Below, one piece after another: positions 29,242 to 33,218 of a DNA stretch of 64,000 bases. Made by a program: the position numbers and the translations under genes. The notes beneath the pieces were generated by a model. That model did no database searches, was not told the DNA's origin, and saw only the letters and a list, made by a program, of their open reading frames with translations. Source of the DNA: Carnobacterium jeotgali MS3 (GTDB lineage Bacteria > Bacillota > Bacilli > Lactobacillales > Carnobacteriaceae); contig NZ_JQNF01000005.1 in the NCBI RefSeq assembly GCF_000745125.1, positions 124,001-188,000 on the forward strand, read 5' to 3'. Every line of letters starts with the position of its first letter. Position 1 is the stretch's first letter.

Positions 29242-30579
29242 TTATTCTAGGTCATTCATAGCAACTTGAGGTGTTTTCTTTAAAATATCAATCACTTCAA
29301 GCGTTCCATTACCAGCTTTAATGACTTTAAAGCTATGATTATTAAAAGTTAATTCTTCTCCGATAGAAATATCGTATTTTTGATTCATCATCCAGCCACC
29401 AATGGTATCGACATCTTCTTCCTCAATAGAAAGACCAAAAATATCATTTACGTCATCAATCAACATTCTAGCACTTACGCGGTAATGATGGTCACCAATT
29501 TTTTTGATTTCTGGTTCACCAACCATTTCGTAATCATCGCTAATATCGCCAACGATTTCTTCTACAATATCTTCCATTGAGATAATACCGCTAGTTCCGC
29601 CATATTCATCGACAAGAACAGCTATTTGATTGCGTTCTTTTTGCATTTTTACTAAAAGTTCTTTGATAGGAATCGTTTCAATAACCGAGATAATCGGTCT
29701 AATGTATTCCGCAAAACTAAAGGTTTCAGATAATTTTGCTTCTACAGCGTCAACATAAACAGCAAAAATCTCTTTTGTATTGATAATACCTAAGACAATA
29801 TCTTTATCGCCATCTTTGATTACGGGGTATCTTGTGAAACGTTCTTTGCTGACCAATTGAGCGATTTCTCTTAGGGTCATCGAAGTTGATACAGTCACCA
29901 TTTCCGTACGAGGTACCATAATTTCACGACTCATTCGATCATCAAATGCAAAGACATTCTCTACAAACTGATATTCATCACGATTGATTTCACCACTTTT
30001 TAGGCTCTCTCCCATAATGATACGTAGTTCCTCTTCAGAAACACCTTCTTCTGGCTCACTGATATTTTTCATACCGATTCGACGTGAAATACCATTTGCA
30101 ATTCGGTTCAATACATAGACTAACGGATACATGATTCTGAACCATATCTGTAAAGGCTTAGCAATGAAGAGTCCAATTTGTTCAGTTTTATTGATTGCAA
30201 TATTTTTAGGTACTAATTCTCCAATAATAACTTGAAGAGAAGTTAAAATGGCAAAAGATAAAACAACTGAAGCAATTGTTGAGACAGAAGGCGGAACGTC
30301 AAAAGATGAAAATATGAGGTCGAATAAACGGCCAAAAGTAGGATTTCCTAACCACCCAATTGCTAGAGAAGTTATCGTCACACCTAGTTGGGTAGCGGAG
30401 AGATAAGTATCTAATTTTTGTGTCATTTCTTTTAAAAGTATCGCACGATTATCACCATTTTCAATTAAGTAATCCAATCTTGATGGGCGAATACGGACGA
30501 GTACAAATTCTGACATCACAAATAAGGATGCAAGAAATAGGATAATAAAGAATACAATGATTCCGGTTGTAATTGACAA
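29242..30579 (-). CDS. CNNM/CorC-HlyC family membrane protein (hemolysin-family, putative Mg2+ transport)
   Basis: The 445-residue protein has an N-terminal DUF21/CNNM membrane domain (about 1-195; FVMSEFVLVRIRPSRLD). A tandem CBS pair follows (about 205-335; MVPRTEMV, VLVDEYGGTSGIISMEDIVEEIVG). A C-terminal CorC_HlyC domain spans about 350-435. Family members such as Bacillus MpfA take part in Mg2+ efflux. The first usable codon is TTG at 30579. The only good ribosome binding site, AAGGAGGTGA, is 34 bp further upstream and is separated by a 9-bp hairpin. No ATG, GTG or TTG lies in frame between them. The leader is long and structured (see separate entries). Confidence 0.9.
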   Translation of the reverse strand: MSITTGIIVFFIILFLASLFVMSEFVLVRIRPSRLDYLIENGDNRAILLKEMTQKLDTYLSATQLGVTITSLAIGWLGNPTFGRLFDLIFSSFDVPPSVSTIASVVLSFAILTSLQVIIGELVPKNIAINKTEQIGLFIAKPLQIWFRIMYPLVYVLNRIANGISRRIGMKNISEPEEGVSEEELRIIMGESLKSGEINRDEYQFVENVFAFDDRMSREIMVPRTEMVTVSTSMTLREIAQLVSKERFTRYPVIKDGDKDIVLGIINTKEIFAVYVDAVEAKLSETFSFAEYIRPIISVIETIPIKELLVKMQKERNQIAVLVDEYGGTSGIISMEDIVEEIVGDISDDYEMVGEPEIKKIGDHHYRVSARMLIDDVNDIFGLSIEEEDVDTIGGWMMNQKYDISIGEELTFNNHSFKVIKAGNGTLEVIDILKKTPQVAMNDLE

Positions 30580-30822
30580 ATTGTTGTCTACGTTGCATAG
30601 CTTAACGTAGACTTCACCTCCTTGTAGTATAGTTTCTAATGATGCTTATCATGAATGGTTTAGTATACAAAGAGCAATTTCAGTGGTCAGATAGTAAATT
30701 CCTCAGGAAGAGGGGAGATACAATGGTGAAAAAGACCCAAAGAAATAGCTATATAAAGTAAACTACTCTTTTGATGGATCAATACCCTTATTAATTTTTC
30801 TGTCCCAAGGTCTCACCTCATC
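30580..30822 (-). ncRNA. Long structured 5' leader of the CorC/HlyC gene (candidate regulatory RNA)
   Basis: From the promoter at 30828-30856 the mRNA leader is about 240 nt. Its first 100 nt can fold. GGTG/CACC and AGACC/GGTCT (30725-30737 with 30809-30817) close an outer stem, with inner AGAAA/TTTCT and AAAGTA/TACTCTTT helices. The element starts right at the predicted 5' end, as riboswitches do. It does not match the M-box or yybP-ykoY consensus that I know. Inference only. Confidence 0.4.
30586..30623 (-). promoter_or_regulatory. Shine-Dalgarno separated from a TTG start by a 9-bp hairpin
   Basis: On the minus strand AAGGAGGTGA (30623-30614) is followed by GTCTACGTT (30612-30604), a 9-nt loop, then AACGTAGAC (30594-30586), six bases and TTG (30579). 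Linear GGAGG-to-start spacing is 37 nt. With the hairpin folded it becomes about 10 nt, which is optimal. The hairpin is a perfect inverted repeat. Confidence 0.6.
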
Positions 30823-30827
30823 CTTAA

Positions 30828-30856
30828 AATATAAAAAACTTGTATCAAACAATAAA
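30828..30856 (-). promoter_or_regulatory. Promoter of the CorC/HlyC gene
   Basis: On the minus strand TTTATT (30856-30851), 17 bp, TATATT (30833-30828), placing the start near 30821. Confidence 0.5.
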
Positions 30857-30973: not shown

Positions 30974-31015
30974 GGCATATCCTCCTTAAGTAGGATGTGT
31001 CTTCATTATTTTTTT
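30974..31015 (+). terminator. Hairpin and T-tract in the PBP leader (possible attenuator)
   Basis: GGCATATCCT (30974-30983) pairs with AGGATGTGTC (30992-31001), with two wobbles, followed by TTCATTATTTTTTTG. It lies after the promoter and before the gene, so it may attenuate transcription. The 488-bp gap at 30580-31067 is otherwise filled by two divergent promoters and leaders. Confidence 0.45.
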
Positions 31016-31067: not shown

Positions 31068-33218
31068 ATGCGAATGAATGAATCTTCTTTTTTAACCAAG
31101 ATAAAAAAAGCTCTGCTCCTATTATGGGAATGGGCTAAACCTTATCTAATAAAGTTCCATAAAAAAAGACAACGCTTTTGGAAAAAATACCACATTAATA
31201 AAATTATTATTTTAGTTATGTTGACAGTAGCTTTAGTGTCTAGTGTTTATTTACTGTATTTAGCAAAAACAGCAAATGTCTCTACACTAAAAGCTGGACT
31301 AGAACAAACCACGACGATTTACGATGTCGATAACGAAGAAGCTGGTACACTTTACTCACAAAAAGGGACATTCGTTTCAGTTGACGATATCTCTGAATCA
31401 ATCGAACAAGCCGTTATCTCAACTGAAGACAAAAGGTTCTACAAACATGCAGGATTCGATCCAATTGGAATTGCAAGGGCAGCAGTGGGTTATGTCGTTA
31501 ATGGTGGAAATATTGTTGGTGGCGGAAGCACAATTACTCAACAATTAGCTAAAAATGCTTATTTAACACTTGACCAAACCTTTATTCGAAAATTAAAGGA
31601 ACTCTTTTTAGCTATTGAAATTGAAAAAGTATATACCAAAGATGAAATACTAGAAATGTACCTCAATAACTCTTATTTTGGAAATGGAGTGTGGGGTGTT
31701 GAGGATGCTTCACAAAAATATTTTGGGAAATCTGCAGCAGATGTTAACTTATCAGAAGCAGCAACGATAGCTGGGATGTTAAAAGCACCCACAAATTATA
31801 ATCCTATTGATGATTACGATAATGCTATTTCTCGGAGAAACACCGTGCTAGATTTAATGGCAACAAATGAAATTGTAACTCAAGAAGAAGTGGACACAAT
31901 AAAAGTTGAAGGATTATCATTAGTAGATGCCTATTCGGAAAAGGAAGGTTATCAATATCCTTCTTATTTTGATGCAGTCGTAAATGAAGCAATCTACACA
32001 TATGGTTTAAGTGAAGAAGAAGTTTTAAATAAAGGGTATAAAATTTATACTTCATTAAATCAAGATTATCAACGTGCGATGGATATAACGTATGAAAATA
32101 ATTACTTGTTTCAAAATGCAGCGGATGGAACACTCCTAGAAAGCGGCTCTGTGGCACTAGATCCAAAGACAGGCGGCGTTTTTGCTATTTATGGAGGACG
32201 AAAAGAACACTCTTTTAGAGGATTTAATTATGCGACTCAAACGGTTAGACAACCGGGTTCTATTATGAAGCCCTTAGCTGTTTATACAGAAGCGTTAGAA
32301 CAAGGATACAGCATTGATTCAATGCTTGTCGATGAACCTCTCTCTTATGGTAAAGATGATTATACTCCTGAAAATGTTGACCATCAATATGAAGGAGAAG
32401 TTCCAATGTACCAAGCATTGGCAGAGAGTAAAAACACATCAGCAGTGTGGCTTTTAAATGAGATTGGATTAGATAAAGGATTCAAAAAAATTGAAGATTT
32501 TGGTATTCCTCTTGTTGAAGGTCCTGAAGGAGATGGCTATTTAGGTCTTGCATTAGGTGGTTTGAGTAAAGGTGTATCGCCACTTCAAATGGCAAGTGCG
32601 TACACAACTTTTGCTAATGAAGGTGTTATGAGTAAAGGTCATTTTATTACGAAAATTGTAGATGCAACAGGTGCAATTATTGTCGACAATACGGAACCTA
32701 AAAAGAAAAAGGTCACTACACCAGAAGTAGCAAAACAAATGACTAGTATGTTAATGGGCGTATTTTCGTATGGAACGGCACGAAACAATGATCCTGCAGG
32801 TTATACGGTTGCTGGTAAAACTGGAAGTACAGAGGTAACCTTTAATGATGAAGGTGGTACAACAGATCAATGGACAGTCGGGTATACGCCAGACATCGTG
32901 ATAGCAACATGGATGGGATTTGATCCAACGGATGAAGAACATTATATGACAACAGGAAGTTCTACTGGGGTAGGTCCATTATTTAAGCTACAAATGGAGA
33001 ATATTCTTCCTTATACTGAACAGACTGCTTTTAATACAGAAAGTGCTAAAGAAATCGTGACTGCAAAAGCAGAAAATGACGTGGATTCTAGCGACTGGAA
33101 ACAAGGCCTAAAAGATACAGTTGATTCAATAGGTGGGAAAGTAAAAGAAGGATCAGAAATTTTGAAGGATAAATTTGGTGGGTTATTGGATAAATTTACA
33201 AACAGAGTGACTCAATAG
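31068..33218 (+). CDS. pbp1A: Class A penicillin-binding protein (PBP1A-type transglycosylase/transpeptidase)
   Basis: This bifunctional peptidoglycan synthase has 716 residues. A basic cytoplasmic tail and one transmembrane helix (46-65) lead into a GT51 glycosyltransferase domain (TEDKRFYKHAGFDP near 115, GGSTITQQLAKN, LNNSYFGNGVWG). The transpeptidase domain carries the active-site RQPGSIMK (S near 396), SKN in AESKNTSAVW and AGKTGSTEV (near 584). ATG 31068 has 4-bp and ATG 31074 10-bp spacing from AAGGA, so either start is possible. The C-terminus is Gly/Lys-rich and short. No recU is next to it, unlike in Bacillus ponA loci. Confidence 0.94.
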   Translation: MRMNESSFLTKIKKALLLLWEWAKPYLIKFHKKRQRFWKKYHINKIIILVMLTVALVSSVYLLYLAKTANVSTLKAGLEQTTTIYDVDNEEAGTLYSQKGTFVSVDDISESIEQAVISTEDKRFYKHAGFDPIGIARAAVGYVVNGGNIVGGGSTITQQLAKNAYLTLDQTFIRKLKELFLAIEIEKVYTKDEILEMYLNNSYFGNGVWGVEDASQKYFGKSAADVNLSEAATIAGMLKAPTNYNPIDDYDNAISRRNTVLDLMATNEIVTQEEVDTIKVEGLSLVDAYSEKEGYQYPSYFDAVVNEAIYTYGLSEEEVLNKGYKIYTSLNQDYQRAMDITYENNYLFQNAADGTLLESGSVALDPKTGGVFAIYGGRKEHSFRGFNYATQTVRQPGSIMKPLAVYTEALEQGYSIDSMLVDEPLSYGKDDYTPENVDHQYEGEVPMYQALAESKNTSAVWLLNEIGLDKGFKKIEDFGIPLVEGPEGDGYLGLALGGLSKGVSPLQMASAYTTFANEGVMSKGHFITKIVDATGAIIVDNTEPKKKKVTTPEVAKQMTSMLMGVFSYGTARNNDPAGYTVAGKTGSTEVTFNDEGGTTDQWTVGYTPDIVIATWMGFDPTDEEHYMTTGSSTGVGPLFKLQMENILPYTEQTAFNTESAKEIVTAKAENDVDSSDWKQGLKDTVDSIGGKVKEGSEILKDKFGGLLDKFTNRVTQ

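Follow-up and report, generated by a model that had tools for sequence, protein, structure and literature searches.

In bacteriophage T4 genes 38 and 25, the Shine–Dalgarno (SD) sequence and the AUG are brought to a functional distance by an intervening hairpin, and destabilization of the hairpin lowers initiation (PMC3014915). In the Escherichia coli polyamine modulon (OppA, CpxR, Cya, PrfB and others), polyamines stabilize a stem between a distant SD sequence and the start codon, and weak start codons and a frameshift also occur among its members (PMC4191411). Relatives of CNNM are involved in the handling of Mg2+ or polyamines (PMC12421838, PMC6711546), and the MpfA/CNNM proteins of Staphylococcus aureus and Bacillus subtilis are Mg2+ exporters (PMC6711546, PMC8844918). 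In open-access papers, we found no description of a spacer hairpin or a merR leader of CNNM/MpfA genes, nor of a merR frameshift. Here we analyse the leader of a CNNM/CorC gene in a 64,000-nucleotide (nt) stretch of Carnobacterium jeotgali MS3 DNA (hereafter referred to as the window), together with its counterparts in other Bacilli.

The gene occupies positions 29242–30579 on the minus strand, starts with TTG (UUG in the mRNA) and encodes a 445-residue transporter with the Pfam domains CNNM, CBS and CorC_HlyC. This domain architecture is shared with the MpfA/CNNM exporters (PMC6711546, PMC8844918), to which the gene is putatively orthologous. Among the curated NCBI families, the nearest to the product is the polyamine exporter PaeA, which it matches with 185 bits, far under the NCBIfam equivalog cut-off of 500 bits. 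The exported cation is probably Mg2+. The leader upstream of the gene spans about 245 nt, and thus the preliminary description was right to place a CNNM/CorC gene behind a long leader. It fared less well with the minus-strand promoter TTTATT-17-TATATT (30828–30856): the two weak, promoter-like hexamers are present (TTTATT at 30856–30851 and TATATT at 30833–30828), but with 8 of 12 matches they were not scored as a promoter by a pattern scan, and in several congeners no good −10 element is present at the homologous place, so that the transcription start is only putative. The leader occurs in one copy in the 2.5-Mb genome, and the dispersed repeat that had been offered as an alternative is rejected. 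A transcription attenuator was likewise rejected, as the window scan detected no terminator on the leader strand and the picture is mixed in other genomes. On the plus strand, at 30974–31001, a hairpin resembling a terminator (GGCATATCCTCCTTAAGTAGGATGTGTC, then TTCATTATTT) immediately precedes a divergent penicillin-binding-protein-like gene at 31068, and a similar hairpin occurs in locus L007 near 1746–1771; the window hairpin is a possible attenuator in the leader of that gene.

The aligned leaders of orthologous genes contain two conserved blocks, with a weaker hairpin between them. The upstream block consists of an SD sequence and a mini-ORF, and the downstream block of the CNNM SD sequence, a hairpin and the CNNM start codon. 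In the downstream block, the SD sequence AAGGAGGTG (30615–30623, minus strand) has a core, AGGAGGTG, that is invariant in 17 aligned orthologs. It lies about 36 nt from the UUG start codon, a distance too long for normal initiation. The hairpin (30586–30612, minus strand) is located in this interval and comprises nine perfect base pairs, with the arms GTCTACGTT (30612–30604) and AACGTAGAC (30594–30586) flanking a 9-nt loop; the spacer folds with −11.9 kcal/mol. In 14 orthologs from Carnobacteriaceae, 100% of the cells over the nine pairs are paired, and five of the nine pairs carry changes on both sides. None of 500 shuffles reached this covariation score, and controls slid along the alignment were 24–47% paired. 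The second CNNM paralog of Carnobacteriaceae (L035-L038) has a shorter hairpin of about 4–5 bp at the same place, between the SD sequence and an ATG.

Counterparts of this hairpin, with unrelated stems, are found at CNNM genes of at least 19 families of Bacilli, as counted by hand. The stems include GCCTTAGCAGAAA/TTTCTGTCAAGGC and TCCTTGCTGAC/GTCAGTAAGGA and may be as short as CCC-UUCG-GGG, with folding energies of roughly −7 to −17 kcal/mol. At 93 of 146 CNNM starts versus 9 of 341 other ORFs (10 of 342 with the window's own CNNM gene, which the control count leaves out), the SD sequence was separated from the start by a hairpin rather than by the usual spacing; one script served both sets, although their treatment was not identical, as the search covered the region around the homologous start for the CNNM genes and the first codons for the control ORFs. 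Hairpins of at least 6 bp were found at 112 CNNM starts, and reading by eye added about 19 with stems that are shorter or were missed by the script. In these 112 genes, the SD–start gap is 36.2 ± 7.4 nt (range 23–56 nt), whereas the gap minus the hairpin is 10.1 ± 2.6 nt and peaks at 11 nt, within the functional range. Raw gap lengths fall evenly into the three phases, indicating that the spacer is not coding, and the start codon is TTG in 103 of the 112 genes. A spacer hairpin is absent from about a tenth of the CNNM genes examined in Bacilli, some Paenibacillus-like paralogs also lack one, and none was found among the CNNM genes examined outside Bacilli. Six CNNM matches (L044, L049, L057, L091, L097 and G518:C1:2626896-2628176) each contain one in-frame stop, maybe near the end of the match.

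The hairpin is thus conserved and covarying, and the gap that remains without it is constant. A long SD–start distance, a covarying hairpin within the gap and a functional distance without it were all found at the CNNM genes, as in the split sites of T4. Since this anatomy is the same as that of T4 genes 38 and 25, the CNNM leader is taken to work in the same way: a stable hairpin would loop out the excess spacer between the SD sequence and a weak UUG about 36 nt away, leaving about 11 nt, and initiation would depend on the hairpin. For this step alone, the analogy with T4 makes us highly confident.

The free choice of stem bears on two other readings of the hairpin. Inverted repeats near start codons are often operators, and the hairpin of E. 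coli thrS is bound by a repressor. That hairpin also interrupts a split ribosome-binding site (PMC3936740). The CNNM hairpin could likewise be a DNA or RNA site for one particular protein, for instance the MerR regulator considered below. However, its sequence, length and loop differ among lineages while its complementarity and the flanking gap are kept, UUCG-type loops occur, and it is retained in the window genome, where merR is absent; we regard an operator as extremely unlikely. Alternatively, the hairpin may regulate nothing and be a structural spacer that is always folded and was fixed by history, or it may act on mRNA stability instead of initiation. The stems are stable, their sequence is free to change and they are tied to no ligand, all of which this reading accommodates; yet a plain short spacer would serve equally well, and the hairpin and the UUG have nevertheless persisted in at least 19 families. 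We consider it unlikely, if worth keeping in view, and return to a split site in which the hairpin sets the working distance.

The upstream part of the leader had been described as an uncharacterized structured RNA on a cation-export gene, a claim that holds in so far as the leader is conserved, structured and absent from Rfam, but not for its first 100 nt, which do not resemble an aptamer. The folding energy of the leader did not exceed that of shuffled sequences (z-scores −0.46 and −0.62). The proposed outer stem (GGTG/CACC plus AGACC/GGTCT) is 75.9% paired in six congeners, a value equalled by 159 of 500 shuffles, and shows no covariation, and it was rejected on that account. As the preliminary description had anticipated, the leader fits neither the M-box nor yybP-ykoY: a covariance-model search against 4227 Rfam families gave no match even at E ≤ 10, and a known riboswitch, including these metal riboswitches, is thus rejected. 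Two further elements occur in this region. A middle hairpin (GATCCATCAAAAGA... / ...TTTCTTTGGGTC; 30734–30780, minus strand) is conserved in Carnobacteriaceae, Trichococcus and Jeotgalibaca and appears in the consensus fold; 90.1% of its cells are paired, and its covariation is weak, with double changes in two pairs. A long-range helix (30825–30703, minus strand) joins AGGATGAGG at the 5′ end of the leader, including the mini-ORF SD sequence, with CCTC[AT]TCCT about 110 nt downstream; it is 96% paired in six species of the genus, but has no double changes and is limited to the genus, and was therefore rejected as a conserved structure.

The conserved core of this region is instead a ribosome-binding site with a five-codon ORF. 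The SD sequence GAGGTG (30814–30819, minus strand) is conserved in congeners and other genera and precedes the mini-ORF TTG GGA CAG AAA AAT TAA (MGQKN*; 30791–30808, minus strand), the two together forming the block GAGGTGAG..CC-TTG-GGA-CAG-AAA about 230 nt upstream of the CNNM gene. In its exact form this block is confined to Carnobacteriaceae, once per genome, in a search of 395 genomes of the order. The mini-ORF itself is common to Carnobacteriaceae, Trichococcus, Jeotgalibaca and, presumably, Listeriaceae; MGQ[KR]N*-like ORFs lie at the homologous place in Trichococcus, Jeotgalibaca and genomes inferred to be Listeria and Brochothrix. Its start codon varies among ATG, GTG and TTG, and its second codon changes synonymously between GGA and GGG. 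About 30 leaders without merR retain the mini-ORF start, its SD sequence and MGQ.

These observations weigh on the proposal of a new cation-sensing riboswitch in the first 100 nt, in which an outer-stem aptamer would bind Mg2+ or Mn2+ and control the gene. The length of the leader, the cation exporter behind it, the middle hairpin kept in two families and the long-range helix able to cover the mini-ORF SD sequence would suit such a device. The lack of an Rfam match, of structure in excess of shuffles and of a conserved outer stem speaks against it, as do the synonymous changes in a 5′ block made up of an SD sequence and an ORF and the restriction of the long-range helix, without double changes, to one genus. 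A riboswitch here is very unlikely. The RNA structure that does covary, the hairpin between the CNNM SD sequence and start codon, indicates translation initiation rather than a ligand-binding riboswitch.

A search for the mini-ORF pattern over Bacilli returned a total near that of the reversed-pattern control, and three of its matches led to merR–CNNM operons (L061-L063, inferred to be Lysinibacillus-like). In these loci, TTGGGACAGAAAAAYTAA, the same sequence as the mini-ORF, opens merR directly upstream of CNNM; MerR lies in the −1 frame, and the MerR frame has no start codon at SD distance. We therefore searched 200 Bacilli genomes for MerR and read 66 merR starts, which are not all independent, as they include several congeners and one Lysinibacillus-like locus twice (L061 and L128). 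They belong to a MerR subfamily of Bacilli that is usually encoded near CNNM (L061-L063, L099-L128 and L257-L289; first ~60 nt of the gene). MerR is in the −1 frame of an SD–NTG start in 59 of the 66 loci, and in 57 the NTG is followed by GGR (54 by script, and L100, L265 and L272 by eye); the other two −1-frame loci lack GGR. In-frame merR genes make up seven loci, six of them without GGR. The −1-frame merR ORF overlaps the start without a start codon of its own, an NTG occurring further downstream in some loci. The base ahead of the NTG is not conserved (besides ATT, the triplets GAT, CAT, AAT, GTT, CGT and TTT were found), whereas the NTG at SD distance and the GGR are kept. Together, the frame and the second codon imply a −1 shift at codon 2, and from these sequences MerR is probably made by a slip at NTG-GGR.

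In such a slip, GGR would follow the G of the start codon, and the glycyl-tRNA would re-pair with GGG one base back; one example of the predicted product is M-G-T-E-K-L-K-I-G-E-L-A. The slippery motif G_GGR is present at the merR starts, but the motif is weak in E. coli, where isolated G_GGN sites slip poorly (PMC4066793), so that the step would need a stimulator, which is hypothetical. In an IS element, one SD sequence acts both as initiator and as frameshift stimulator (PMC5009743). A competing account is that slippage of RNA polymerase on the G run, or an unusual start codon such as ATT, gives access to the −1 frame, the window mini-ORF being only a by-product. The poor slippage of G_GGN tetramers in E. 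coli would fit it, as would the runs of 3–4 G at the site and the ATT ahead of GGG in the MerR frame at several loci; what it leaves unexplained is that the base before the NTG varies while the NTG at SD distance and the GGR are conserved, and that GGR is mostly lost in in-frame merR genes. We judge it rather unlikely and prefer a ribosomal slip at codon 2.

The window has no merR–CNNM operon, as no merR lies between the leader start and CNNM, and the window genome yielded no MerR match at E 1e-12. Given the absence of a match, the mini-ORF, which is homologous in sequence to the merR start, is best read as a relic of that start that survived the loss of merR, a gene found ahead of CNNM to this day in many Bacilli; perhaps it now serves as a leader peptide or in translation coupling. 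Entered from the mini-ORF, whose NTG-GGR is a putative −1 slip site, the −1 frame of the window is open for 39 codons plus a stop (GTEKLIRVLIHQK...EEFTI*; 30687–30806, minus strand). In nearly all merR-less leaders this frame is open for 27–52 codons (combined p 1.6e-6, a value that ignores the relatedness of the genomes), yet it has no synonymous excess and no sign of selection at the amino-acid level, and a small protein was rejected for this ORF.

On this account, the leader would be a translation-level region rather than a ligand riboswitch, combining a split-site CNNM start with an upstream merR-start relic (MGQKN*), that is, with a second ribosome-binding site and a five-codon ORF on the same transcript. 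Taken as a whole, this explanation has our moderate confidence. Its likeliest purpose would be to tie the production of an exporter of cations, probably Mg2+, to the condition of the RNA or the ribosome; one route, a guess, would be a hairpin whose stability depends on the cation or on polyamines. By analogy, Mg2+ or polyamines might plausibly exert such control. Because most of the stems are perfect and stable, however, the hairpin may stay folded at all times and sense nothing; constitutive folding and sensing are equally possible. The account could be extended much further: across Bacilli, the exporter would be translated only when Mg2+ or polyamines stabilize a hairpin of free sequence, an aptamer-less sensor; the only source of MerR would be a −1 frameshift at codon 2, set by the SD sequence used for initiation; and Carnobacteriaceae and Listeriaceae would have kept the frameshift leader without the regulator. 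In this full form it is decidedly improbable.

Hairpin-bridged starts were known before mainly from single phage genes, as in T4; here the arrangement is conserved in one gene family across at least 19 bacterial families. The UUG starts and freely changing stems provide a natural set of variants with which to test how ribosomes bridge a hairpin, and offer a lead on the tuning of Mg2+ export where no metal riboswitch was found. Moreover, an unnoticed frameshift at codon 2 of merR is suggested, which, if true, would make the annotated starts of many merR genes wrong.

Compared with described systems, the window leader shares with the M-box and yybP-ykoY its position 5′ of a cation-transport gene, and differs from them in matching no Rfam family. 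In E. coli thrS, as proposed here, the ribosome-binding region is split by a hairpin that is accommodated in its folded state (PMC3936740), but the thrS hairpin spans −48 to −14 with its own domain layout and a repressor, whereas the CNNM hairpin is free in sequence and lies strictly between the SD sequence and the start codon. The likeness to the polyamine modulon comprises a distant SD sequence with a stem, an inefficient start codon (UUG), a frameshift within the set and, for the CNNM proteins, a place in Mg2+ or polyamine homeostasis; by contrast, the modulon stems are bulged and A-U rich (PMC4191411), whereas the CNNM stems are mostly perfect and stable, with nine perfect pairs in the window. 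Closest are T4 genes 25 and 38 (PMC3014915), in which a hairpin likewise restores the distance from a remote SD sequence, from 22 to 5 nt and from 27 to 11 nt, compared with about 36 to 11 nt for CNNM. The T4 sites use AUG and are limited to close T-even phages, whereas the CNNM sites belong to a cellular gene family, mostly use UUG, and follow a merR gene or its putative relic.
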